DNA of 48,597 bases from the NCBI GenBank assembly GCA_016939365.1, contig JAFGHD010000006.1:1-48597 (forward strand). The letters run 5' to 3'. The notes under the pieces are model-generated. The model was not told the origin of the DNA. It did not search any database and was given only the letters and a program-made list of their open reading frames with translations. This document shows positions 731 through 48,167 of this stretch, piece after piece. A program made the translations under genes and the position numbers. The stretch's first letter is position 1; every line of letters begins with the position of its first letter. The DNA comes from Bacteroidales bacterium. Its GTDB lineage: Bacteria; Bacteroidota; Bacteroidia; Bacteroidales; JAFGHD01.

Positions 731-3049
731 CTAATCCCCCGTGACCACCACCTTCCGCGTCTGTACGATCTCACCAAACCGGATCCGGAGGAGATAGACG
801 CCGGGTCCGAGATCCCCGGGGTCCAGCGGGATCATGTGATGCCCGGGACCAATGGATCCTGAAGCGACAACGGATAGCAGCCGTCCTGAGATGTCGTACA
901 GCCGGAGCATCATCTCTCCCGGGCGGTCCGCCCGGAAGCTGATTTGGCCTTTGCCGGCCAGGGGATTGGGCATGACCTGCCACTCCGGACCGTTTAAACA
1001 GGCAGCTTCCTCTTCACCGGACAGGAGGTTGAACCGGTAGATGCCGAATCCCGCCGGGCCGTCGGCGACAAACACATGCCCTGCAGAGTAGGTCACGTTC
1101 ACGGCAAAGCATCCGGTCCGTTTGTAATAACCGGCAACAGATGGAGCATACGGGTCACTCACATCCACCACCGTGACACCTTCCAGGATGTAATTGGCGA
1201 CGAAGGCGAAGGGCCAGTGGAGGTCAACGGCCCAGGCGGCATCGCCCAGCGGGAAATAGCTCACCTGATAAGGATTGGACGGATCCGAGACATTCACTAT
1301 GGAAAATCCGCCTTCATTCCCGGCCACATAAGCCATCCCGTTGAAGACCTTGATGTCCCGGCCGTCGCCGTCCCAGTCCGTGAACCGGTTCAGGAAAACG
1401 GGTGCTGCGGGATCGGTGATATCGAACGTATAAATGCCACGGGTATCCTCAGCGGTGAATGGCCCATAGTCCAGGATGCAGAGGATACCATCTTCCACAT
1501 CCACGGCCTGGGCATAACAATATTCCTCGCCGGGCACGGCTCCGTTGACCCATCCCATCTCATGGGCCACCTGCACGGGAGCGGCGGGATTTTCAAAGTC
1601 GATGATCCGTATGCCGTCCCACCAGCAGGCCACCACTGCGTAATGGCCGGTAATATCCAGGTCGTTGGTCATCCAGGGGCATATGTAGTGGCTGATCTTG
1701 AACGGATGCGAAGGATCGGTGATGTCCATGAAGTTGACCCTGTTGGATGAGCCCATGCTTTCCGGGCAATACACGGCCACATCCCCCGACACCTTGACCA
1801 GGGCTCCCTGGGTTTCATCATATCCCACCTGGACGGGATGGGTCTTATCGGTGATGTCGAACACCCTGAAGCCGTTGCTGCCCAGGTAGGCATGATCACC
1901 GGATACGGCGATGTCCCATACGGATGAGGGCAGGGGACAGGTGTCGGCCTTCACCGGTTGCTGGGGATCGGTGATGTCCAGGAACAGACAGCCTTCGGTG
2001 CCTCCCGTGGAACAGGCTGCTTCGTTACTGCTGCAAATGAAGGTCTGGTATCCGGGGTAATCTCCGACATGTTCCGGAGCCGAAGGATCGCCCACATCCA
2101 CCATGTTGATCCCTCCCCCGGGGTTGGTCGTGGAATTGGCCACGCATGCCACCTGGCCGGAGAGGCTCAGGCGATAGGGAGTCCCATCCAGCGCAAGGAA
2201 TCCTGTCTGGGTGGCGGGGAGCTGGCTGAAGTCGAAGATCCGCAGGCCGAACGACGAGTTCAGGATATATGCCAGCGTACCTTTCACCTGGAGGGTGGTG
2301 GTGGGGGTGCCGATCGTAAAGGCCTGTGCGGGGCTGGTGCCGGATGAAATATCGATGGCAATGGTTCCTGAGTTGCCCGCGGCCAGGAACAGGGTATCCC
2401 CCTGGCAGAAGGAGCTCCACAGCAAAGCGGAAGTGAAGCTGAACGATCCGGCCGACCAGGGGTTTGATGGATCGCCCACGTGAAACACCTCCACACCATT
2501 GGTTACAGTGACCAGGTATGCATAATGGTGGTCATAGGTGCCGTCCCAGGTGACGAAGATACCGCCCCTCGGCAGGCCGTTGACGGGCGTGCGGCTCAGC
2601 CGCTTGGGCAAGGTCATATCTGAAAGGTCCCATATCTCCAGTCCTGAAAAATAGGCTGCGAGATACAAAAGCTTCGATTCGGGCTCGTAGTAGCATCCGT
2701 CAACCAAAGCCCTGGCACGGATCTCGGATATCTGCTCCGGCTGGTAAGGATCGGATGCATCGAAGACGAGAACCGCCGCTCCGCTGCCTACGAATACCGT
2801 ATCACCCGAAGGGCTGCAATGAATGGTATAGCTTTGACCCAGACCCCAGTTGCCGGTGAAGGTCATGTTGAGGGAGTCAAATTCCGGCAGGAGGATTCCC
2901 TTGCCGGCCGGATCGTGAGAGATCCCTTTTGAGACATCGGCTTCAGAGCCTGCAATGCATGGGCGGCTGGTGATCCTTTCTTCCTGTGCTGATGCCACCG
3001 TTATTGAAACGGTCAGGCAGAGCACGATGATGGAGCGGTGTGTTTTCAT
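731..3049 (-). CDS. LVIVD-repeat beta-propeller protein, T9SS cargo
   Basis: A 772-residue secreted protein. Residues 1-22 are a signal peptide ending in ASAQ. The body is a run of about ten LVIVD-type units with the recurring pattern (V/I)x(V/I)(V/F)D(V/I)(S/T)DPxxP, read as beta-propeller blades. The last ~80 residues have the T9SS type A sorting pattern: VMPNPLAGK, then LYDISGRLL, then GVYLLRI and a basic end. Such domains direct export across the outer membrane and cleavage by a PorU-type sortase. No catalytic motif is visible; a role in adhesion or surface binding is inference. The start is the ATG next to the signal peptide, 12 bases after the stop of the upstream response-regulator gene, so the two may share a transcript. 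Confidence 0.88.
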   Translation of the reverse strand: MKTHRSIIVLCLTVSITVASAQEERITSRPCIAGSEADVSKGISHDPAGKGILLPEFDSLNMTFTGNWGLGQSYTIHCSPSGDTVFVGSGAAVLVFDASDPYQPEQISEIRARALVDGCYYEPESKLLYLAAYFSGLEIWDLSDMTLPKRLSRTPVNGLPRGGIFVTWDGTYDHHYAYLVTVTNGVEVFHVGDPSNPWSAGSFSFTSALLWSSFCQGDTLFLAAGNSGTIAIDISSGTSPAQAFTIGTPTTTLQVKGTLAYILNSSFGLRIFDFSQLPATQTGFLALDGTPYRLSLSGQVACVANSTTNPGGGINMVDVGDPSAPEHVGDYPGYQTFICSSNEAACSTGGTEGCLFLDITDPQQPVKADTCPLPSSVWDIAVSGDHAYLGSNGFRVFDITDKTHPVQVGYDETQGALVKVSGDVAVYCPESMGSSNRVNFMDITDPSHPFKISHYICPWMTNDLDITGHYAVVACWWDGIRIIDFENPAAPVQVAHEMGWVNGAVPGEEYCYAQAVDVEDGILCILDYGPFTAEDTRGIYTFDITDPAAPVFLNRFTDWDGDGRDIKVFNGMAYVAGNEGGFSIVNVSDPSNPYQVSYFPLGDAAWAVDLHWPFAFVANYILEGVTVVDVSDPYAPSVAGYYKRTGCFAVNVTYSAGHVFVADGPAGFGIYRFNLLSGEEEAACLNGPEWQVMPNPLAGKGQISFRADRPGEMMLRLYDISGRLLSVVASGSIGPGHHMIPLDPGDLGPGVYLLRIRFGEIVQTRKVVVTGD

Positions 3050-9972: not shown

Positions 9973-10992
9973 TTATTGTCCGAACAACCGGCTCCATCTG
10001 CGTTGCGGCCTTTCCTTCCAGATGCCGCTGTGCCAGGCATAGCTGACGATCAGGGGAAGTACGGTGGTGGCCTCTGCGAACACCATCTGTTCGAACGCGG
10101 TATCCACTTTGCCCCATGAGGAGGCTTCCTGTAGGGTAGAAGAAGAGCAGGCCCCGTCCCTGACATCGGCCACGGTGATTTGCACGGCATACCGGTGCAT
10201 GGGCACTTCCCTGCCCAGAATCTCGGCACAGACGACCGTGTCCTGTGCGAAGTTTTTCGGAACGCCGCCGCCGATCATGAGGAGGCCGCTGGTAGGAGCC
10301 TCCATCTTGATCATGGTCAGCTCCCTGAAATCCTTCACCGAATCGATGGACACATGCTTCTCGGGCCGCTCCCATTGGTGCTTTACCAGTCCGAAGCCGG
10401 CGCTGGAATCGGAAAAGGCAGGGCAAAATACGGGCACGTCATTCTCGAATGCCGCCTGGATAAGGGATTCCTTTTTCACAGCATTCCGGATGAGGAAACT
10501 GCCCAGCTCCCGGATGAATTCCCGGGATGAAAAAGGCCTCGGATCCATGCTGTCGGCCACCTTTTTGATGGTCATGTCACAGACCTGGAGCTCCTCCTCA
10601 TCAATGAAGGTATCGTATATACGGTCGATATACAGCTCTCTCAGCGTCCGGTCCGGAACATGCTGTCCGCCTTCATAGTGCCTGAAACCAAGCGCTTCGA
10701 AGAAGTCCATATCGATGATGGAGGCGCCGGTGGCCACGACCACATCCACCATACGGTAACGGATCATATCCGCATAGACCTGCATACACCCGCCTGCGCT
10801 GGAACTTCCCGCCAGGGTCAGCATGATGGTGCATTCCCTGTCGCCGAGCATCTTCATGAAGATATCAGCCGCACGGGCCGTGTCACGCGATGAGAATGAC
10901 ATCCTGCCCATGGCCTTGATGACCGGTGTGGCATCGAAAGAGGTGATGTCGATATGTTCAATGGGATTGCGCAGCAAATCTCTCTTTTTCAT
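9973..10992 (-). CDS. Deoxyhypusine-synthase-like enzyme, probable homospermidine-type synthase
   Basis: A 339-residue member of the deoxyhypusine synthase (DHS) family: NAD-dependent transfer of an aminobutyl group through an enzyme-lysine imine. The catalytic lysine is in SSWGKV (K295), equivalent to human DHS K329. AGSSSAGG and GGGVPKNF mark the NAD-binding core. From memory of the human enzyme, two spermidine-site positions differ: the histidine of KHHIANANL is Asn in PKNFAQD, and the aspartate of GSDSG is Cys (C282). Bacteria lack eIF5A, so the acceptor should be a small amine. Homospermidine from putrescine is the best guess; a diguanidino analogue from two agmatines is the alternative. 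The start overlaps the agmatinase stop in ATGA, which implies translational coupling. Confidence 0.85.
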   Translation of the reverse strand: MKKRDLLRNPIEHIDITSFDATPVIKAMGRMSFSSRDTARAADIFMKMLGDRECTIMLTLAGSSSAGGCMQVYADMIRYRMVDVVVATGASIIDMDFFEALGFRHYEGGQHVPDRTLRELYIDRIYDTFIDEEELQVCDMTIKKVADSMDPRPFSSREFIRELGSFLIRNAVKKESLIQAAFENDVPVFCPAFSDSSAGFGLVKHQWERPEKHVSIDSVKDFRELTMIKMEAPTSGLLMIGGGVPKNFAQDTVVCAEILGREVPMHRYAVQITVADVRDGACSSSTLQEASSWGKVDTAFEQMVFAEATTVLPLIVSYAWHSGIWKERPQRRWSRLFGQ

Positions 10993-11849
10993 GATTGCCG
11001 GTTTTTGGAAAATATCTGGCTCAGTGTCTGGTATATCAGTTTGGCTGCCAGGAATTCGGAGGTTTTATGTCCGGGTATGGGGCACAGTTCCACCACATCG
11101 AATCCCACGATCCGGGCAACGCTGTCCACAGCCCGGATCAGGTTCATCACCTCATGATAGTAGAGTCCGCCCGGCTCAGGTGTCCCGGTGGCCGGTACCA
11201 CAGCCGGGTCGAAAACATCCAGATCGATGGTGATGTATACATCGCCCCTGAGCATGCCTGTGACTCTGCCGATCCAGTCGGCCCCGTTACGGATCTCGTG
11301 GGCAAATATGATCCGTTCCCGGTCGGCAAAGGGCAATTCGGAACTGTCCATGCTTCGGATGCCCACCTGGATCACCGGACAGATTTCCTTTGTCCTGGCC
11401 ATGACAGAGGCATGGCTGAAGGGTGAGCCCTCATACTCCTGCCTCAGGTCGGTGTGTGCGTCGAGTTGCAGCACCGTGATATCGCCGTAATGATCCCTGT
11501 GCGCCCTGATGGCTCCGATACTGACGGTGTGGTTGCCGCCCACGGTGACCAGGAATTTGTTCATTCTCAGGAACTCAGCAGCATGCTTATATATCCTGTC
11601 AACCACCTCTTCCGGTGTACCTGCCGGGTCCACCGGATCGGAGGTATGGATGCCCAGGGTGTAGATTTCGGTGTCCGTTTCGATGTCATACAACTCCATA
11701 TTGGCGGAAGCCTCCATCAGTGCCTCAGGCCCGTTGCCGGATCCCTTTATCCAGGTGCTGGTGGCATCATATGGCACCGGCAGGATCACGATCTTTGATC
11801 CGGACAATTCCGTATGCTCTTTCGGCAGGCCGCCAAAATTCATAAGCAT
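10989..11849 (-). CDS. speB: Agmatinase (ureohydrolase)
   Basis: A 286-residue arginase/agmatinase-family hydrolase, expected to convert agmatine to putrescine and urea. Manganese ligands are visible in GGNHTVSIG (His; the usual Asp before it is Asn), QLDAHTDLR and TIDLDVFDPAVVPATGTPEPGG. The last motif fits agmatinase better than arginase. It sits between the arginine decarboxylase gene (27-base gap) and the DHS-like gene (4-base overlap), so agmatine is the expected substrate. A guanidino-homospermidine product of the DHS-like enzyme is a second possible substrate. Start: ATG at 11849 gives MLMNFGG; ATG at 11843 is an equally good alternative. Confidence 0.9.
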   Translation of the reverse strand: MLMNFGGLPKEHTELSGSKIVILPVPYDATSTWIKGSGNGPEALMEASANMELYDIETDTEIYTLGIHTSDPVDPAGTPEEVVDRIYKHAAEFLRMNKFLVTVGGNHTVSIGAIRAHRDHYGDITVLQLDAHTDLRQEYEGSPFSHASVMARTKEICPVIQVGIRSMDSSELPFADRERIIFAHEIRNGADWIGRVTGMLRGDVYITIDLDVFDPAVVPATGTPEPGGLYYHEVMNLIRAVDSVARIVGFDVVELCPIPGHKTSEFLAAKLIYQTLSQIFSKNRQS

Positions 11850-11876
11850 GGAAAATACGTTTTATATTATTGACAA

Positions 11877-12470
11877 TCAAGCCAGAACAGGGTACAGGTA
11901 ATTGGTGAAACACAATGCCACCAGCGCCGTACCATACTTCTTCCGGGGAACGAACGACTCGCTGATGAGCTCGATCCGGCCCATAGAGTACTTCTCTTCA
12001 AACCCGTTGATGTACAGTTCATTCAGACTTGCCCGTAACCGGTAATCCAGCTCTTCTTCGGAGTAGTTGCCGTAGTGCTCGCACACCAGGCCTCCGTATT
12101 TGCTCCCCGTATTTTTGTCATGCAGCCAGCCATATATGATGCCGGCGGTGCATCGCTCACCCTCGCCCCCGTTGCAAACCGACATGATGGTCTCCATGAC
12201 GGCGCCATGGACCAGGTCATTGGGTTTGTCTATCTTGTTGGCTATGGCCGGCAGGATGGAGGAATAGGTCATGATGTTGGCCATTTCGATACCGGCTGCT
12301 TTCAGTGCGAGGTGGTAGGAACCTGCATGGATGGTGATCTCGCTCTCACCTGTACCCCGGGTAACAAAGTAATCTTTTGGGATCCGGTTACCCACAATGA
12401 GCCCGCTCTGAAGGAACGTCCGCTCATTGATGTCTGAAAGTGACAAGTTGCTCGTGTTGTGTATTTTCAT
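11877..12470 (-). CDS. pdaD: Pyruvoyl-dependent arginine decarboxylase
   Basis: A 197-residue PvlArgDC, converting arginine to agmatine and CO2. The self-cleavage site is in MTYSSILPA (Ser70-Ser71), which matches the Ser-Ser-Ile-Leu-Pro of the archaeal enzyme; the second serine becomes the pyruvoyl group. The glutamate in GGEGERCTAG fits the catalytic acid. The frame is open upstream for another 79 codons, but that part is low-complexity and lysine-rich, unlike the family. The start MKIHNTS at 12470 has a good Shine-Dalgarno (AGGTGAG directly before ATG) and gives the expected length. First gene of the polyamine operon. Confidence 0.92.
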   Translation of the reverse strand: MKIHNTSNLSLSDINERTFLQSGLIVGNRIPKDYFVTRGTGESEITIHAGSYHLALKAAGIEMANIMTYSSILPAIANKIDKPNDLVHGAVMETIMSVCNGGEGERCTAGIIYGWLHDKNTGSKYGGLVCEHYGNYSEEELDYRLRASLNELYINGFEEKYSMGRIELISESFVPRKKYGTALVALCFTNYLYPVLA

Positions 12471-12526
12471 CTCACCTAAAGCATAAAATAGATTTTGGTT
12501 AAACACTATTCCCTGAAAAGGGAGGG

Positions 12527-12534
12527 CAAATATA
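12527..12534 (-). promoter_or_regulatory. -7 box TATATTTG of the polyamine operon
   Basis: The minus strand reads TATATTTG, a full match to TAnnTTTG, 57 bases before the pdaD start. No clear TTTG lies 19-21 bases further upstream. The leader contains a small CCCT/AGGG hairpin (12511-12522). Confidence 0.55.
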
Positions 12535-12916
12535 CTACTAACATGTAAACGGAATCTTTTTTTTACCTTTAAAAAAATACATTTTTTCTTGTTTTTTTTA
12601 TATTTGGTTGATAGACAGCACTTAAAATTGTCATCAGAATCCGGAAATCCGTCGACGGAGGGTACATATTCTGACTTATTTTCCGAGCAGGTAAGCAGTG
12701 GTTCCAAATTGTCAGACTGATGATTACCCGGTATTGGTCCCGTCGCCTATGTTCACCGGCGGACAGGCTATGTCCCATCCCGTGACAGGTTGACCGTGGC
12801 CGGAACCGGTATTGTTGCAGCGTAAAAGCCTTACAGCAAATATGTTATGGAAAATGGCACTATATTTAAGGAAGAAAAGAAAAATGGCCGTCTGAAAAAT
12901 CATCAAAAATCACCCT
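12535..12916. other. Divergent intergenic region without a gene
   Basis: About 380 bases between two divergent genes. The first 80 are very T/A-rich. On the plus strand TATATTTG (12599-12606) matches the -7 consensus but lies 311 bases before the next ATG. A near-match TATATTTA (12861-12868) is closer to that ATG and is the likelier promoter of the 12917 gene. No convincing short ORF or known RNA was recognised. Confidence 0.5.
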
Positions 12917-15679
12917 ATGAGAAAGACATTTACCCTTGTCACATTATTAGTTTTTGTGATCCTTTCATCACCATCCTCTCTGGAATGCCAGGAAAGAGGG
13001 TGGAAACCTGACGGACATGTCAGGAAGGGCTTATGGGAGACCCATGAGGCTTTTAACAAGTGGGCCTCAGGAAGAGATATGTTATACGAGAAGGGATATA
13101 AGCCATACAAGCGCTGGGAGTGGCAAGTCATGCCAAGGCTGTTGTCTGACGGAAGCCTGCCCGGACTGGCCATGCTTGCTGAAGCTGCAGAGCGGAATAA
13201 CCGGATGAGGATCGGGAATAAGGATTTCTCCCTGAATTCATGGGTACCTGTGGGACCGTTTGAAGTGCCACCCTCATTATCTCCCTATCCGATCCATGAT
13301 ATCGGAAGGATCAACTGTATCGCCTTCCATCCGACGGATCCGGATATTTTCTGGGTGGGTGCCCCACAGGGCGGGATCTGGAAAACAACGGACGGCGGGC
13401 AGAACTGGATGCCCCTTGGGGATCAACTTCCTGTGATGAAGATCAGCGATATCGCGGTGGATCCGGCCGATCCGGATGTGATGTATATCAGCATCTGTGA
13501 TTATGGCTATATGGCTTTTTTCATTTATTATTTCGGACGACCGACGGCATATGGCCTGGGTATATACAAGACCACTGACGGCGGGCAGACATGGGCGCCC
13601 ACCGGCCTGACATACACATTGAATGACAAGCTGTTCTCGATGTTCAGAAGGGTGTTCATTCACCCCGTCAATCACCAGTCCCTGCTGGCTGCAGGAGTGG
13701 ACGGCATATACGGGTCGGATGACGGGGGAGTGACATGGACGGAGAAGAGCGGCGTTTTTGTATGGGATATCGAGCAGGATCCTTCCGATTTCCAAACCCT
13801 GTATGCCACCACATGCGACTGGTACGGAGGCATATGCGGCGTAATGAAATCGACCGATTTCGGTGGCACCTGGCTGCCGCTGGAGACGGGCATCCCGAAG
13901 AATGACACGGTGGTACGGATCGAAGTGGCCTTGGCGCCCTCCGACCCGGATGTGGTATATGCCACATGCTCCGCTTACGATGAGGCTTTCTATGCCTTTT
14001 ACCGTTCCGTTGACGGTGGCGCCACCTGGTCAAAACAGGCCGACAGCAGTCAGCTGAACCTGTTCGGCCAGACCAACGGCGATCCGTCCAACAAGCTGGC
14101 ACAGGCAAGCTATGACCTTTGGCTGTGGGTCGATCCTTCCGATCCTGACAAGGTTTACTCCGGGGCGATGAATATCTGGGGCTCTGAAAACGGCGGCCTG
14201 TCCTGGAATATCTGCTCATTCGGGATCCACTGTTATGGCCAGAGCATCCATTTCGACCACCACTACATCCGTCGCAATCCGCTGGATAATAAGATCTATC
14301 TCACATGCGACGGCGGACTCTACCGTACCGATGAGATCGTGATGGGTAACCTTCAGCAGTTTGACAGCTGCTGGTCCATCCAGAACCTCACCACCCAGTG
14401 TTACGAGTTTCCCACCCAATGGGAGAACCTGAGCGACGGTCTGGTCATCACCGAGTTCTACAGGCTTGCATTGAGCCGGAACACTCCGGGCTATGTATTG
14501 GCAGGCAGCCAGGACAACTGCATCTATTTCAGGAACCCACAGGAGGAATGGGTGAACCTGACCTCCGGGGATGGCATGGAGTGCATGATCCATCCGGACA
14601 ACCCTGATATCATTTATGCTTCCAATCAGTTCGGATACCTGTGGCGCTCCCTCAACGGCGGGTTGAACATGGGCCTGGTGACGGGCTACCTGCTCAACCA
14701 GGAGGGGCAGGGGGCATGGGTCACCCCCTTCGTGATGGATCAGGAGCAGCCGGAGACCATCTATGCAGGCTTCCGGAACCTGTGGCGGTCGGATAACCAG
14801 GGAGCCGTCTGGAACAAGATATCGCAGTTCCCCAATATGCCGGGATCGAACCTGCCCCTGCCCGTATGGGACATCGCCCTGGCACCCGGAAATCCCGATG
14901 TGATCTATCTCAGCAAGCAGCCTTATCCTGCCGCCGGAATAGGATACCCGGGACAGATGTGGAAGACGGTGAACGGAGGGCAGGACTGGGTGAACATTAC
15001 AGGCAACCTGCCCGTGCAGAACACTTTCATTAATGACATCACCGTAGGGGAAAACCCGGAACAGGTCTATGTGGTCTGTTCGGGATGGGTCAACGGCATG
15101 AAGGTGTACCGCTCTGCAAACGGAGGGCAGGCCTGGGAGAACATCACGGGCAACCTGCCCAACATACCGGTTTCATCCATTGTGCTACAGGAAGGCAGTA
15201 CCCTCAACGACCTTTACCTGGGTACGGATATCGGGGTTTATTACCGGAACGATAACTATAACGACTGGGAGCTTTACAGCGACAATCTTCCCAATATCGT
15301 GATCAACGAGCTGGAGATCAGCTACCCGGAGAACATGATCTATGCTGCGACTTACGGCCGAGGTATCTGGAAGGCTCCCCTGATGAACCCGGTGACTTCG
15401 GTAAGCCGGAATCCGGGCCTGAAGGAGGCTGAGATGAGCATCTTCCCGAATCCGGCCAACGATCAGGCCTTTCTGGAGGTGACGGCCCGGCAGCCTGGGA
15501 TCGCTGAGGTGGAGGTGCTCGATATCCTTGGCACGGTGGTTTACCAGACCCATCTGCAATACTTCGATGGAAAAACCTCACTGAGCCTGCCAGTCCGGGA
15601 GTGGGTCTCCGGCCTCTATTTCGTTACGGTTGCCGGAAGCGGGGTCGTTCAGACCTGCCGCCTGCTGGTAAACAGGTAG
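12917..15679 (+). CDS. Sortilin/BNR-type beta-propeller protein, T9SS cargo
   Basis: A 920-residue secreted protein. Residues 1-24 form a signal peptide. The body carries about ten Asp-box motifs (SxDGGxTW type): KTTDGGQNW, KTTDGGQTW, GSDDGGVTW, KSTDFGGTW, RSVDGGATW, GSENGGLSW, RSDNQGAVW, KTVNGGQDW, RSANGGQAW. They mark sialidase/VPS10-like propeller blades. The sialidase arginine triad and acid are not evident, so hydrolase activity is doubtful. The last ~80 residues are a T9SS type A sorting domain (SIFPNPANDQAFLEV, VEVLDILGTVVY, GLYFVTVAG, basic end). A cell-surface or released binding protein is inferred. It converges with the next minus-strand T9SS gene. Confidence 0.88.
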   Translation: MRKTFTLVTLLVFVILSSPSSLECQERGWKPDGHVRKGLWETHEAFNKWASGRDMLYEKGYKPYKRWEWQVMPRLLSDGSLPGLAMLAEAAERNNRMRIGNKDFSLNSWVPVGPFEVPPSLSPYPIHDIGRINCIAFHPTDPDIFWVGAPQGGIWKTTDGGQNWMPLGDQLPVMKISDIAVDPADPDVMYISICDYGYMAFFIYYFGRPTAYGLGIYKTTDGGQTWAPTGLTYTLNDKLFSMFRRVFIHPVNHQSLLAAGVDGIYGSDDGGVTWTEKSGVFVWDIEQDPSDFQTLYATTCDWYGGICGVMKSTDFGGTWLPLETGIPKNDTVVRIEVALAPSDPDVVYATCSAYDEAFYAFYRSVDGGATWSKQADSSQLNLFGQTNGDPSNKLAQASYDLWLWVDPSDPDKVYSGAMNIWGSENGGLSWNICSFGIHCYGQSIHFDHHYIRRNPLDNKIYLTCDGGLYRTDEIVMGNLQQFDSCWSIQNLTTQCYEFPTQWENLSDGLVITEFYRLALSRNTPGYVLAGSQDNCIYFRNPQEEWVNLTSGDGMECMIHPDNPDIIYASNQFGYLWRSLNGGLNMGLVTGYLLNQEGQGAWVTPFVMDQEQPETIYAGFRNLWRSDNQGAVWNKISQFPNMPGSNLPLPVWDIALAPGNPDVIYLSKQPYPAAGIGYPGQMWKTVNGGQDWVNITGNLPVQNTFINDITVGENPEQVYVVCSGWVNGMKVYRSANGGQAWENITGNLPNIPVSSIVLQEGSTLNDLYLGTDIGVYYRNDNYNDWELYSDNLPNIVINELEISYPENMIYAATYGRGIWKAPLMNPVTSVSRNPGLKEAEMSIFPNPANDQAFLEVTARQPGIAEVEVLDILGTVVYQTHLQYFDGKTSLSLPVREWVSGLYFVTVAGSGVVQTCRLLVNR

Positions 15680-18241: not shown

Positions 18242-21200
18242 TTATTTGATGACCACGGTCTTTGCGGTCAGCGCTGTTCCCTGGCCGGTACCGAGCCTGA
18301 TGGTGTAAACCCCCGCCTGTTCCGGCTGCCACTCTGTCCGGCAGAGGCCTTCGGGGATCATCCCTTCCATCAGCACAGCCACCCTGCGTCCGTCGGGGCT
18401 GAACGCCTCCAGCATCACCTCCGATGCCCGGCTGAGGGTGAAGCTGACGGTGACCGTTCCGCCGGAAGGGCTGGGATAGCAGACGAGCCCGCCGGCATCG
18501 CCGGCGCTCCGGTCACCGGCCTCTTCCCTGAGCGACACCACGTAATGGCCTCTACCCTCGCCGGCATATATGCAGCGCTGTTCCATCCTGCCCGTGGCAG
18601 GATCATACACCCGGTATCCTGTCTTCAGTATCACCGAGGCCTTGTATCCGTTCCATGTTTCGAAGGTGACGGCCGATCCGGGAGGCACGCCCTGCAGGTA
18701 TGCGTTCACCTCCACCACGGTGTCGCCCGGCAGCCTGACGGCAGCGCCCCTGACTTCACCGCCGGCCAGCAGTGCGATCTCCTGTACCGTGGCAACGGAA
18801 TCGAACTCCACATAAAAAGGGATGTAGTCGGCATATTCATCGTAGGAATAGTATTCCGGCTGCGGCAACTCATCCCATGAGCCCGCTTCCTCGCCCCAGT
18901 TCCACTGGAAGGTGAGGATATCCTCATTATCCGTCTTCAGGATCACCAGGTCACCGTAACAGAATGGGGTGATCCGGCCGTCGGTGCGCCAGATATAGCC
19001 CTCGCCGCCCGGGTTGTCTTCCTTGATCATGGTCCAGTACTGGGTCTTGATCATCTTCAGGTGCTCATCCATCCATGCCTGTCCTCCCGGGAAGGCCTCC
19101 TGGGGATACTGCGCCTGCTCCAGGAAGTAGCCCGTCCAGTTCTCCACGCCCGGATCGAGGGTGAGGACGGTGGAGGGATGGAGCTGCGCGCCCTGCATCT
19201 TCATGAAATACGGCGAAGTGGGTTCGCCCCAGGTGACCTCGAGCTTGTATCCGTATGTACTGTACAGGTATGGTAAACCATTTTCAATCCATGGATTAGG
19301 AGGATCATATAAAATATAACTTGCGGTTGGTGGTTCAAGAAAATGCATTCTTGCATAATCCGGGGGCCAGGGCAGGATCCGTTGATCCACTGAAGCGATG
19401 GAACCCGCTGCTTCGTTGCCGAAGCGTTCCAGCCTGGGGAAGGAGAGCCAGTTCCAGCCGTTCCCGATGTGCAGTTTGTCGGTAAAACATTTCACGACAG
19501 TTGCATTGCTGAAGCTGTAATTGCCGGAGATCACTTTATTGTCATGTGTATTGAATATGAGCCTCGGGTTTTTATAGCTTGAAGGAAAATAGAACCAGGG
19601 AATAACATTCATTCTATTGCCGCTTGGTACCAGGTCTGCCTGCTCATCATACAGGCCATCAACGGTTTTAATATAGATTTCGTTATGTTCGCCTGATTCC
19701 GGGTAAACGTTGTAATAATAAACCTTATCATTCACTTGGTTATGATCAATTACTTCGCTCCGTTGGGTTTGCAAATGGATAATGTACTGGTCAGTTTTGC
19801 AATCTACTATAGATACTTGTGAATTCGTGCTTTGACCCAAATTGTTCACAATATAGAGCTTATCTTCATAAGCGCTGTATTGAGCGAACTTAGGTCGATA
19901 TCCACCAGGAGGGAATATTGGATCAAGTAACTGGTAATTGTTAGAAACATCCACTACATGGATAACTGGGTAGGTCGACCAGTAATTTAGAAGATAGATT
20001 TTTTGAGCTTTTTCAGCAAACACAATATCCGTATATCCTATTGTGGGCATAGTCACAGGAATCTCAAATGCGCCTGTAATATGGTCTATCGCCAATAATT
20101 CCGGGAATCCTCCGGAACCTGATATTGTATAGACTCTTTCGTTTATTTCATCTTTGGCAAATTCCCAAACATATGGCAAAGGAAATTGCGTTTTGGCGTA
20201 AGTATGTGCATTGATCCTGAATACATATTGAGTTGCTCCGCAGTAAATATAATCATCCCAACTCAATAGTACAAGGGGACCGTCCCCCATAGGTATCACA
20301 TCAGTCAGCGCGTTAGTTTCCGCATCAATTACCTTGATGGCATGATCTCCGAAACATGCGACAAAAACCTTATCTGCAGCTTCGTTGAATACGCACGACT
20401 TCATGTTTTTTCCAACCTGCAGGTGGGTGATGTAATCATTGGTTTCGCCATCAATGACCGTAATGCTTCCTGTATTGTATTCCGACCTCGTTTGCATGAG
20501 GAATGCCTTATTGATGTTTTTCGTTTCATCATAAGCATGGCAGCCTGCGAAACATCCTGCCCCGGTCTGGTTAACCCTATACAGGATACATCCCCGTATG
20601 AAAGTCATTATGGTTCCTTCCGCCAGATTCGATGAGATGATAAAGTCAGTGCCTTGATAGGTGAACATCGACACGTCTGTGCTTTGGCAACCCATAAGGT
20701 CACTTTCGCAGAATATGGTATTGTCATTGTTGATGGTTACAAAACGGTTGTCGGCGCCGCAAAGGATCTGGTTCATCTCCTGGTCCAGATGCAGGCTTCT
20801 TGGATCCTCGATGTTCAGAACCTGATACACCTCCCCAGAGAGAACATCGTATTCCTTTAACCATGATCCGCCTGCAAAGTACAGCCTGCCATCGTTATTG
20901 TAGAGCGCATCGGCAACATATAGCATCCCGAGTTCAAAAGAGCCGGTATAGTTTCCCGTCTGCCCGTTGAATTTGCGTACAATCGTGTGATCCATGGAAT
21001 GACCGTATACATTGTTACCGTCAGATACCAGTTTATCGAGCACATATGGTTCCGTATGTAATACACTGAGGTCTGAAATGTTTATCAGCTTAAACCCGCC
21101 GGAAGTGCTCACATACAGCACATTGCCGTCTGATTTTAGCAGTGCGTCATAGATGACGCCACTCAATGACTCTTCGTATGCCGCTGTACCATCCCACGAC

Positions 21201-21880
21201 GGATATACCTTTATTTTGCTGACACCCTCCCAATAATTAAGTATCCAGATAATGTTATGGTGGACCGGTTCATATAGCACCGATGTGGACATTAACGTAA
21301 AGACCTCATTATCGTTGTGAGTTATCAACATTTCGTTATTGACAGGATTGATCACAACGAGCTCTTTTCCATCGGTGGCACAATAGATAAAACCCTGCCA
21401 GGAGCTGAAGGCAAGTCTGCGTTCATAAGGATATAAAAATGTGCCGAGTATTTGGTTCAGTTGACCGAAATCAGAAACAGTGAATCCATCAATGACCGCG
21501 AAATCGAAAGGATCGATCACCGAAATCCTTCTGTTCCCGAAGGCATAGAGTTTATTGTTTGCAGGCACAAAGATCACATCCTTCGGCAGCGCACCGCCGT
21601 TCGGTTCCGGCAACCATAGGGTCATATCAAACACATCTGATTGAAAACCTGGCTCCTGGTATTCACCGTCCATGTGAAGGATAAAATCTGATACATCAGG
21701 CGAACCCTTGATAATGAACGCCTGCTGTGTTCCGTTGATGGTGTCGGTTACTCTGGCAATGGATTTTCCTTCGCAGTAAGGGTCGATCGTTACCGAATAA
21801 TTTCCATTCTGACCGAGTGCTGTGCTGATCATCAGGGCCATCATGAAAAAATATGCTGTAAAAAAAACATTCGTTTTCAT
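18242..21880 (-). CDS. YVTN/NHL-type beta-propeller protein, T9SS cargo
   Basis: A 1212-residue secreted protein, counting from the ATG at 21880; a TTG three codons upstream is less likely. Signal peptide residues ~1-23 end ...STALGQ. Residues ~60-780 contain YVTN-like units (RISVIDPFDFAVIDGF, GKELVVINPVNNEMLI, ADKVFVACFGDHAIKVIDAETNALTDVI), read as one or two propellers. A middle region opens GNGWNWLSFPRLERFG. A C-terminal T9SS sorting domain follows (VCYPSPSGGTVTVSF, EAFSPDGRRVAV, GVYTIRLG). The DNA encoding the N-terminal two thirds is strongly AT-rich and the C-terminal third strongly GC-rich. Function unknown. The next gene downstream is another T9SS cargo on the same strand. Confidence 0.86.
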   Translation of the reverse strand: MKTNVFFTAYFFMMALMISTALGQNGNYSVTIDPYCEGKSIARVTDTINGTQQAFIIKGSPDVSDFILHMDGEYQEPGFQSDVFDMTLWLPEPNGGALPKDVIFVPANNKLYAFGNRRISVIDPFDFAVIDGFTVSDFGQLNQILGTFLYPYERRLAFSSWQGFIYCATDGKELVVINPVNNEMLITHNDNEVFTLMSTSVLYEPVHHNIIWILNYWEGVSKIKVYPSWDGTAAYEESLSGVIYDALLKSDGNVLYVSTSGGFKLINISDLSVLHTEPYVLDKLVSDGNNVYGHSMDHTIVRKFNGQTGNYTGSFELGMLYVADALYNNDGRLYFAGGSWLKEYDVLSGEVYQVLNIEDPRSLHLDQEMNQILCGADNRFVTINNDNTIFCESDLMGCQSTDVSMFTYQGTDFIISSNLAEGTIMTFIRGCILYRVNQTGAGCFAGCHAYDETKNINKAFLMQTRSEYNTGSITVIDGETNDYITHLQVGKNMKSCVFNEAADKVFVACFGDHAIKVIDAETNALTDVIPMGDGPLVLLSWDDYIYCGATQYVFRINAHTYAKTQFPLPYVWEFAKDEINERVYTISGSGGFPELLAIDHITGAFEIPVTMPTIGYTDIVFAEKAQKIYLLNYWSTYPVIHVVDVSNNYQLLDPIFPPGGYRPKFAQYSAYEDKLYIVNNLGQSTNSQVSIVDCKTDQYIIHLQTQRSEVIDHNQVNDKVYYYNVYPESGEHNEIYIKTVDGLYDEQADLVPSGNRMNVIPWFYFPSSYKNPRLIFNTHDNKVISGNYSFSNATVVKCFTDKLHIGNGWNWLSFPRLERFGNEAAGSIASVDQRILPWPPDYARMHFLEPPTASYILYDPPNPWIENGLPYLYSTYGYKLEVTWGEPTSPYFMKMQGAQLHPSTVLTLDPGVENWTGYFLEQAQYPQEAFPGGQAWMDEHLKMIKTQYWTMIKEDNPGGEGYIWRTDGRITPFCYGDLVILKTDNEDILTFQWNWGEEAGSWDELPQPEYYSYDEYADYIPFYVEFDSVATVQEIALLAGGEVRGAAVRLPGDTVVEVNAYLQGVPPGSAVTFETWNGYKASVILKTGYRVYDPATGRMEQRCIYAGEGRGHYVVSLREEAGDRSAGDAGGLVCYPSPSGGTVTVSFTLSRASEVMLEAFSPDGRRVAVLMEGMIPEGLCRTEWQPEQAGVYTIRLGTGQGTALTAKTVVIK

Positions 21881-22269
21881 GGTTGTCAATGGATAAAGTA
21901 AAGTTAAAAGAAATTTTCATTAGAAGACTTGAAATCCACGATCATTGCCCCCGGCTGTAAATTGCATTGACCGGGGGCCTCTGCAATGAACCTGTTCTCC
22001 TCCCGCAGATCGGGAATGCCAGGCATTGCAATATTCCGCAACTGCCTGATTCTCTCTCTCTGAAAAAATTAACCAGGTAAAGGACGGGGATCATCTTTGG
22101 AAGGTCGTATAGATTCAAAATAGATAACAAATTTACAAATATATACGAATTATTCTTGTTTGTCAACCAAAATCGAATTTATACTGAGAATGAATGTCTT
22201 GTAATGAGTCCGGCGATCCATGGCCGGCCTCTTTACGGAAAGGAACTGAAGGGAGTTCAATAATGATTC
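21881..22269. other. Intergenic leader with hairpin and -7 box
   Basis: About 390 bases with no gene. On the minus strand TATATTTG (22143-22136) could start the upstream T9SS gene, leaving a leader of ~255 nt. Within this leader GCCCCCGG (21947-21954) and CCGGGGGC (21971-21978) form an eight-base perfect stem. Next to maf, GAACT/AGTTC (about 22244-22259) is a weak candidate terminator for the maf operon. Confidence 0.5.
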
Positions 22270-45383: not shown

Positions 45384-45782
45384 ATGGATCTCGATTATCA
45401 ATGCCCGCATTGCAATGGATATCTGAATACTGAGGATTGCCTTGTATTCTCTGCTACTGCACAATCCGGTCTGTCGGGGCTGATTTACCTCCATCCGGAA
45501 ATTGGGAATTATACGGTCAGAAAGCACCCTTCATTTAACTACAGTGAGGGTGAAAGCCTGAAGTTTTTCTGCCCTATATGTCATGCGCCGCTTTCTTCGG
45601 GTGTTCACGAAAGGCTGGCACGGATCATCATGATTGATGAGACGGGGAAAAGATATGACATTCTTTTTTCTCAGGTGGCTGGGGAGCAGAGTACCTACAA
45701 GATCATTGGCGAAACCGTGGAGATTTTCGGTGATGATTCAGCGGAGTATCTTGATTACATCAACCTCAGTATGAATTTCTGA
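45384..45782 (+). CDS. Small zinc-ribbon protein of unknown function
   Basis: A 132-residue soluble protein with two CxxC pairs, CPHC (about residues 7-10) and CPIC (about 63-66), spaced for one zinc ribbon. The rest is a beta-rich domain with GERYDILFS-like strands. It lies 100 bases downstream of the ferredoxin oxidoreductase operon on the same strand. No function assigned; no signal peptide or membrane segment. Confidence 0.75.
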   Translation: MDLDYQCPHCNGYLNTEDCLVFSATAQSGLSGLIYLHPEIGNYTVRKHPSFNYSEGESLKFFCPICHAPLSSGVHERLARIIMIDETGKRYDILFSQVAGEQSTYKIIGETVEIFGDDSAEYLDYINLSMNF

Positions 45783-45808: not shown

Positions 45809-47515
45809 TCAGAGGGAAAGGCTGTCGGCAGACGGTTGTGGAACGGGCTGGGAATCGGTCTCCTTCCAGTACCGGACATCCATCAGATCGAGCCGTTTCT
45901 TCAGGTTGTTCCAGCGTGTTTCGAATCCTTTTGATTTTCCGGTCCAAAGTATTTCCGACAGGGCCGACATCCTCGGCAACACCATGTATTCCACATCGGC
46001 CAGACCATCCATGTAACCTGTGGGTATCCTTCCCACCCAACCCAGCGGGCGGATCTCCGGAGGGCTTACTTCTTCGGGTGCACATGCCAGAATGTCCCTG
46101 TATGTCAGCAAGCCGGGAGACGAAAGCGGTTCAGAGGGGGCTCCCTCCTGGTACATGTCAAACCTGCAGAGGGATTCCGGTGAGAGAAGGAGCCGCTCCC
46201 AGGGTCTGTCTGCATGGAAACTTTCCGGGTCGGTGATCATGATGGGATTCTCGGGTGAAAGTTCACCGCCCAGCAGGTGTTGCCCTGCGATCAGTGTCAA
46301 TCCATGTTTGGATGCTGTTTCATTGATTTTTTTTACAAAATGCTGCTTCAGGGCTTCGCGATCACTCCTGCCTGATCCCTGAAGGAGTTGCCTGCAGTTT
46401 TCGCAGGGATTCCATGACTGTTCCGGAGGGAAGCAGCCCGATATCTCGACATATCCTGAAGGGAAGACCTGTGCCAGGTATTGGAACACTGCATCCAGGA
46501 GTTGGTAGGTCTCTGTCCTGGTCACGCAGAGTGGGATCTGGGATTCAGGGGGTATTTCACCCGTGGCCACCCGGAACTCATCCGGGTAGCATGCCGTCTC
46601 CGGGTGTGATGCAAGGATGGCATTCACATCCGTGGGTAGCGGTATGACGGGTATAACCTCAATACCGAGTTGTGAGGCATAAGTGACCACCTGTCTGACA
46701 TCTTCTTCCGTATAAAATCCTCCGTATACCGGAGGTTCATTGTCCCTGGCGGGGGTTGCCCTGTTCCAGGGCTCTCCGCTCCGGTCGGGGCGCCATGCTC
46801 CTGTCTGGATGAGCTCCGGCATGCCCGGCACTTCCAGCCGCCAACCCTGGCTGGCGGATATCTGCCAATGGAACCTGTTGAATTTATGCAAGGCCAACAG
46901 ATCGAGGAAACGGATAATATGCCGTACAGGCATGAAATGACTCGCCACATCAAGGTGCATACCGCGCCATGGCACTTCCGGCCCGTCGCTGATCCGGAGC
47001 GAGGGAAGGGACACATTGACGGCCGCTCCCGTGGTATCGGCTCCCGGGTAATAATCATAGACCAGCTGGATAAGGGTCTGTATTCCCCGGTGAAGGCCTT
47101 CGGACGATCCCGCCGACAGTTGTATGTTATCGGTTCCGATGTCCAGCCGGTATGCCTCTTCCTTTTCTTTGGCGGCATCGTCCGTCACTCCAAGCACAAT
47201 CATTCTTTTTCCCTGAACGGGCGCCGCCTGAATCGCTTTGTGCAGCCTGAGCCCCGTCAGCTCAGCGATCTCATCCGAAAGGTAAGCAGCAGCCTGGCGG
47301 CTGCCCTCTAAGGTATCAGCAACTACAATTCTGGTCCTCGGTCCGATCTCGAATGTTCCGCTTTTCACCTTTGATTGTACCGGCAAAGGGATGATACCTG
47401 CACCGGCAGGTAACCGGTCACGGCATGAATTGAACAAAAATGCCAGGATAATGATTATCGGTACCACGACCGGCCGGATACGATAAATTGTTGTTATTTT
47501 TACAATGTCTGTCAT
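45809..47515 (-). CDS. GH20-family lipoprotein, catalytic residues missing
   Basis: A 568-residue protein with the GH20 beta-hexosaminidase architecture. Residues 1-31 are a lipoprotein signal (IIILAFLFNSC, lipid Cys31). Residues ~35-180 match the GH20b N-terminal domain (IIPLPVQ, YRLDIGTDNIQL). Residues ~182-530 match the TIM barrel (PWRGMHLDVASHFMP, NRFHWQIS...QGWRLEVPG, EYMVLPRMSALSEILW). The catalytic Asp-Glu of the HxGGDE motif is replaced: EISGCFPPEQSW has Cys361-Phe362. TDDQGW is SASQGW, and DMPGH reads PLPTD. It is therefore probably a pseudoenzyme or sugar-binding lipoprotein. The frame is intact, so it is not a decaying gene. Divergent from the DUF3365 gene, 43 bases apart. Confidence 0.87.
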   Translation of the reverse strand: MTDIVKITTIYRIRPVVVPIIIILAFLFNSCRDRLPAGAGIIPLPVQSKVKSGTFEIGPRTRIVVADTLEGSRQAAAYLSDEIAELTGLRLHKAIQAAPVQGKRMIVLGVTDDAAKEKEEAYRLDIGTDNIQLSAGSSEGLHRGIQTLIQLVYDYYPGADTTGAAVNVSLPSLRISDGPEVPWRGMHLDVASHFMPVRHIIRFLDLLALHKFNRFHWQISASQGWRLEVPGMPELIQTGAWRPDRSGEPWNRATPARDNEPPVYGGFYTEEDVRQVVTYASQLGIEVIPVIPLPTDVNAILASHPETACYPDEFRVATGEIPPESQIPLCVTRTETYQLLDAVFQYLAQVFPSGYVEISGCFPPEQSWNPCENCRQLLQGSGRSDREALKQHFVKKINETASKHGLTLIAGQHLLGGELSPENPIMITDPESFHADRPWERLLLSPESLCRFDMYQEGAPSEPLSSPGLLTYRDILACAPEEVSPPEIRPLGWVGRIPTGYMDGLADVEYMVLPRMSALSEILWTGKSKGFETRWNNLKKRLDLMDVRYWKETDSQPVPQPSADSLSL

Positions 47516-47558: not shown

Positions 47559-48167
47559 ATGGGAAAATACAGGTTGTTCCTGATCTCTTTGCTGATCATG
47601 TGGGTTTTGTTTGCCTGCCGGCCGCCGGGATCGGTCATTACCGAGCCCACCCTGGTCGAGATTGAAAGGATTCATCCGGCCGGGAGCGAGGTGGCCCAGA
47701 TGGTGTTTCAGACCCTCAAAGGGGAGTTGCAGAAGGCCATGCAGATGGGGGGATCTGCTGGGGCTCTTGATGTGTGTCATATGAAAGCCATTCCCCTCAC
47801 GGATCAGGTCAGGGAGAAATTTCCGGAAGTAATGGAAATCAAACGCACGACATTCCTTTACCGCAACCCGGCCAATGCCCCCGGTCATGCCGACAGCCTG
47901 GCCCTGAATTATTACATGTCGGTTGAGCGGTCGGGCGGTGAATTCCCTGAACATTATGTTCAGAAAGAGCATTCGGATGAGGGAACCCTTTTTCATTACT
48001 ACCGGCCGGTACTCACTGACGGAATTTGCCTGGTGTGCCACGGTGATCCGGCCAAAATGGACACATCCGTGATCCGAATCATCCGGCGGCTTTATCCCGG
48101 CGATCAGGCCACCGGATATCAGGCCGGCGATTTCAGAGGGCTGATCCGTGTGACGATCCGTGAATAG
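47559..48167 (+). CDS. DUF3365 c-type-heme lipoprotein
   Basis: A 202-residue exported protein. The lipoprotein signal is LLIMWVLFAC (Cys20). A DUF3365 (Tll0287-like) domain covers the rest and contains one c-type heme site CLVCH (C157, C160, H161). LDVCHMKAIPLTDQV and RTTFLYRNPANAP fit the family. Periplasmic or surface heme sensor or electron carrier; exact role unknown. No cytochrome partner is visible nearby. Confidence 0.88.
   Translation: MGKYRLFLISLLIMWVLFACRPPGSVITEPTLVEIERIHPAGSEVAQMVFQTLKGELQKAMQMGGSAGALDVCHMKAIPLTDQVREKFPEVMEIKRTTFLYRNPANAPGHADSLALNYYMSVERSGGEFPEHYVQKEHSDEGTLFHYYRPVLTDGICLVCHGDPAKMDTSVIRIIRRLYPGDQATGYQAGDFRGLIRVTIRE

Follow-up and report, generated by a model that had tools for sequence, protein, structure and literature searches.

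We analyzed a 48,597-nucleotide stretch of contig JAFGHD010000006.1 (assembly GCA_016939365.1, Bacteroidales bacterium), referred to as the window, and identified near its end a gene for a 568-aa GH20-like predicted lipoprotein without a catalytic site (hereafter pGH20). The coordinates given for it in the original prediction, which was made from the sequence alone, agree with the open reading frame; the strand, absent from that prediction, is minus, and the plus strand over the same interval carries many stops. The gene, its parts, and its neighbors are as follows:

45384-45782, plus strand: left neighbor, a conserved 132-aa protein, 64% identical in a same-genus genome with the same gene order
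45809-47515, minus strand: pGH20, delimited from the open reading frame, its Pfam GH20 domains, and an AlphaFold model
45938-46972, minus strand: GH20 catalytic barrel (PF00728), residues 182-526, about 196 bits in Pfam against a cut-off of 22.3
46985-47398, minus strand: GH20 domain 2 (PF02838), residues ~40-177, 69 bits in Pfam
47423-47515, minus strand: putative signal peptide and lipobox (...AFLFNS-C31), read from the translation only
47559-48167, plus strand: right neighbor, a Tll0287-like protein with CxxCH, which in relatives immediately follows the 132-aa gene

The N-terminus of pGH20 consists of a hydrophobic segment and then the lipobox-like FNS-C31, whose Cys is not followed by a strongly acidic stretch. 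From these features we infer a protein that would be exported and lipid-anchored, with the anchor facing the periplasm. GH20 domains extend across the full length (Pfam residue numbers run one below the translation numbering, the first codon having been left off), and, with the lipobox present in the translation, the earlier description as a GH20-type lipoprotein holds as a prediction. Membership in GH20 is indicated by both Pfam domains, which score above cut-off, and by the modeled (beta/alpha)8 fold with its GH20b domain, with Z 47 to 6q63. The intact GH20 paralogue encoded in the same genome (L082, 787 aa), which we used as the reference, has a C-terminal CHB_HEX_C/Fn3_assoc region that is missing from pGH20 in the Pfam comparison of the two.

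The pocket of VhGlcNAcase is composed of R274, D303, D304, H373, D437, E438, W487, W505, Y530, D532, W582, and E584 (PMC8098473), and the pGH20 counterparts are, in the same order, S192, A221, S222, D296, C361, F362, G411, T428, R451, D453, P498, and G500, so that 11 of the 12 pocket residues are replaced and D453 alone is kept. The exchanged sites, located by alignment and all on the minus strand, are:

46940-46942, minus strand: S192 for the sugar-binding Arg (VhGlcNAcase R274)
46841-46858, minus strand: SASQGW (220-225) for TDDQGW
46628-46642, minus strand: PLPTD (292-296) for EMPGH/DMPGH
46430-46447, minus strand: EISGCF (357-362) for HxGGDE, with Cys361-Phe362 in place of the catalytic Asp-Glu
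46274-46291, minus strand: IAGQHL (409-414) for IGWDEI, a pocket Trp gone
46229-46240, minus strand: MITD (426-429) for MSWR, a pocket Trp gone
46157-46165, minus strand: R451-F-D453, the pocket Tyr gone and the Asp retained
46016-46030, minus strand: RIPTG (496-500) for NVWTE, a pocket Trp and Glu gone

The second, third, and fourth of these motifs were quoted exactly in the original prediction; the losses go beyond its list and include R192S, H218Q, W411G, W428T, Y451R, W498P, and E500G. The pocket is intact in 60 aligned homologues, with the Asp-Glu pair invariant, 11 of the 12 pocket columns invariant or nearly so, and the first Asp of TDDQ always Asp or Glu. Loss in pGH20 affects 11/12 pocket positions versus 37/99 other positions conserved at ≥90% (Fisher p = 0.0004), and the protein retains 56% of conserved positions, compared with at least 82% in the homologues (median 98%). 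Conserved positions of structural type are kept, including R184-G185, D189, F215-H216-W217, G224-W225-R226, Y268-T269, P514-R515, E521, and W524. pGH20 therefore has neither the catalytic Asp-Glu of a GH20 hexosaminidase nor the subsite -1 set of Arg, Asp, His, 3 Trp, Tyr, Asp, and Glu, and is by definition a pseudoenzyme, an enzyme homologue without the conserved catalytic residues. The 37 conserved positions lost outside the pocket count against our best explanation, a retained pseudoenzyme.

The AlphaFold model of pGH20 had a pLDDT of 90.2 and a pTM of 0.90, with low confidence only in the last ~16 residues. The closest solved structure was BT0459 (6q63), a Bacteroides hexosaminidase (Z 47.0, rmsd 2.3 over 497 residues), and the best solved relatives were all GH20 hexosaminidases, with Z of 43-47. 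The 2-domain GH20 frame is thus predicted to fold normally. The input alignment was built from 61 window and locus sequences, with intact enzymes among them, so the model indicates compatibility of the sequence with the fold and not a present pocket ligand.

In the same-genus genome G001, the genes run in the order 2-oxoacid oxidoreductase gamma subunit, 132-aa protein, Tll0287-like protein, and outer-membrane protein, with ~20 bases at the site where the window has pGH20. Two further relatives, G172 and G068, have the same gene order with pGH20 absent from the site. The empty site in the 3 relatives points to a lineage-specific insertion or, less simply, to several losses. The intergenic gaps of 26 and 43 bases beside pGH20 were counted against a retained pseudoenzyme, our best explanation. 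The neighborhood, made up of a ferredoxin oxidoreductase operon, the Tll0287-like CxxCH protein, and the outer-membrane protein, shows no glycan-gene linkage. The Tll0287-like protein carries the haem-c motif CLVCH and is 45% identical to its counterpart in the same-genus genome, where its neighbors are 64-75% identical.

Location bears on whether the odd motif stems from a sequencing or assembly error, as the gene lies ~1 kb from the contig end of a draft assembly. However, the changes are spread across the whole catalytic domain, often with 2 or 3 bases altered per codon and no frameshift, and both flanks agree with the gene order of relatives; such an error is refuted in practice and is exceedingly improbable.

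The loop GAWRPDRSGEPWNRATPARDNEPPVYGGFYT of pGH20 matches the AWRVDREDEPW...YGGFYT type (AWR-DR-xxPW) of the GH20 clade of its own order, and this shared loop makes that clade the probable source of the gene. On the tree, the pGH20 branch is very long (4.9-6.4 changes per column), which leaves its placement unsure. A clade of pGH20, its own-genome paralogue, and the same-genus orthologue of that paralogue was not rejected (p-AU 0.19), a value at which duplication and transfer within the order are indistinguishable.

We searched 60 relatives, 2 genomes of the family, 393 genomes of the order and 395 of the class, genome_contigs, and viral_contigs, and found no degenerate orthologue of pGH20; the nearest matches examined elsewhere were intact enzymes at ~27-35% identity. 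A repeat search centered on another genome of the order, run without a positive control, was also empty. The orthologues with the same substitutions that the original prediction proposed to look for were thus not encountered in >750 genomes and genome_contigs, in which pGH20 is a singleton insertion and not a member of a conserved pseudoenzyme family. As the searched genomes cover roughly half of known species, with the family represented by 2 genomes, close orthologues may exist unseen. Convergent dead GH20 copies were likewise not found in the order, the 19 lower-scoring hits that were fetched all keeping Asp-Glu (as GGDE, GSDE, GCDE, or GTDE). A further GH20 match of 31 bits in the order belonged to a different kind of protein and was set aside.

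We compared pGH20 with the paralogue L082 to obtain a measure of constraint. The two diverge at 0.53 of bases, and at 0.52, 0.43, and 0.65 for codon positions 1, 2, and 3, respectively, so that conservation is highest at position 2 and lowest at position 3. In the pocket codons, 23/36 bases (0.64) differ, close to the third-position level, and a recent mutation of the active site is judged unlikely on this count. Neutral simulation from L082 to equal divergence, under a simple mutation model without indels, gave a mean of 21 stops (never fewer than 11 across 200 runs) and 19% identity, while pGH20 has 0 stops and 35% identity; at a simulated divergence of even 0.1, just 0.3% of runs were stop-free. 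Together, the diverged pocket and the absence of stops indicate that the pocket was freed long ago and the frame held since, unless the pocket was altered in an episode of positive selection, which would likewise point to a function. Because pGH20 is a singleton, selection is read here from one sequence and not from a between-species comparison.

Loss of constraint differed between the 2 domains. The N-terminal domain is 29% identical between pGH20 and the paralogue and 33% between 2 intact GH20 paralogues of one genus (L082, 1501-3090, and L005, 1501-3081; GH20b domain), whereas in the catalytic domain the corresponding values are 37% and 85%, which makes the loss specific to the catalytic domain; canonical pairs with similar N-terminal identity average 57% there. 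The N-terminal domain is saturated, so its identity gives no date for the split. Pfam scores follow the same division, with 69 bits for pGH20 versus 73 for the paralogue in PF02838 and 196 versus 415 bits in PF00728. When GH20 matches were collected from 129 genomes of the order, pGH20 again scored far below the paralogue (198 versus 418 bits).

A functionless decaying copy that is open by chance would be consistent with a singleton insertion on a very long branch, with no orthologue in the genomes searched, and with somewhat low GC3 (0.60) and CAI (0.67), which lie at the low end of the window although codon usage is inside the range of the neighbors. The missing stops, the codon-position pattern, and the high-confidence predicted fold all oppose this, and plain decay is judged quite unlikely. 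The gene is instead kept, in 1 genome, as an intact frame predicted to fold.

We therefore favor, at a probability of about 0.62, an exported, lipid-anchored GH20 pseudoenzyme surviving as a binding or scaffold protein on the periplasmic side, probably an isolated "dead enzyme" maintained for some other job. The gene is a copy related to the ordinary GH20 hexosaminidases of the order and sits as an insertion between 2 genes adjacent in relatives; the active site is erased and the C-terminal part missing, while the 2-domain frame is open. On our proposal the product would neither hydrolyse hexosaminides nor accommodate GlcNAc at the former subsite -1. It might bind or scaffold through the surface of the retained barrel, through the N-terminal domain, or through the remodelled pocket.

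The original prediction had envisaged a selected sugar-binding or regulatory pseudoenzyme. Its selected pseudoenzyme is supported by the open frame, the predicted fold, the codon-position pattern, and the ~21 stops expected; sugar binding at the old site is not, as each of the residues (Arg, Tyr, Glu, and 3 Trp) by which the -1 GlcNAc is held has been replaced. A lectin-like pseudoglycosidase still binding GlcNAc-type sugars in the old cleft, comparable to the GH18 chitinase-like lectins, would belong to a known kind of glycan-binding protein (PMC7828330), and the retained D453 corresponds to a VhGlcNAcase residue that contacts sugar O6 (PMC8098473). A retained lectin, however, would be expected to lose its catalytic pair before its sugar contacts, and we consider the proposal doubtful and on balance unlikely.

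New chemistry in the old barrel, with the pocket rebuilt around new polar residues for another substrate, is also unlikely in our assessment. It would account for the exchange of nearly all canonical pocket residues, many by multi-base changes, in a kept barrel, and for the Cys, His, and acidic residues newly present close to the former site, at the ends of strands, the candidates being Cys361, His413, Asp296, Glu357, Arg451, and Asp453; other families are known to include "pseudoenzymes" that are active, their catalytic residues having migrated (PMC10211241). Against it, no orthologue was found that would show these residues to be conserved. In a broader form, a GH20-derived lipoprotein of a single lineage may have exchanged the entire active site either for a pocket that takes a new ligand or for a new activity, possibly one based on cysteine; this is tentative and rather unlikely, and if true would represent a GH20-fold protein fully departed from hexosaminidase chemistry.

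Like the GH20 beta-N-acetylhexosaminidases BT0459 (6q63), Bt4394 (7dup), VhGlcNAcase (6ezr), and SpHex (1hp4), pGH20 has a 2-domain architecture (predicted fold Z 43-47), and like other Bacteroidota GH20 members it has a lipobox, but its catalytic Asp-Glu has been replaced, as have almost all residues of subsite -1. A glycosidase fold without catalytic residues is shared with the pseudoglycosidases, including GH18 chitinase-like lectins (YKL-39), GH1-like klotho proteins, and the GH33-like CyRPA (PMC7828330); these belong to other GH families, and the glycan-binding ones keep the sugar cleft, whereas the sugar contacts of pGH20 are gone. Secreted GH18 proteins without the catalytic Glu in Andreprevotia ripae are likewise bacterial CAZyme homologues predicted to be inactive, with the loss reported for that Glu and not, as in pGH20, for the whole pocket (PMC8802321). 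Several GH families have known pseudoglycosidases, but we found no GH20 case in the open-access literature searched on GH20 and hexosaminidase pseudoenzymes. If real, a retained GH20 pseudoenzyme would be a clean case of vanished pocket constraint with fold constraint kept, and its own genome supplies an intact paralogue for comparison. It also cautions that hexosaminidases can be overcounted when GH20 genes are annotated from Pfam alone.

Elsewhere in the window, adjoining minus-strand genes at 9973-12707 encode deoxyhypusine synthase-like, arginase-family, and pyruvoyl-dependent arginine decarboxylase proteins, an arrangement resembling a cluster for polyamine synthesis. Further, the genes at 731-3049, 12917-15679, and 18242-21889 encode large secreted proteins that carry C-terminal sorting domains of the type IX secretion system, their kinds being LVIVD repeats, sortilin-like, and one without an assigned kind.
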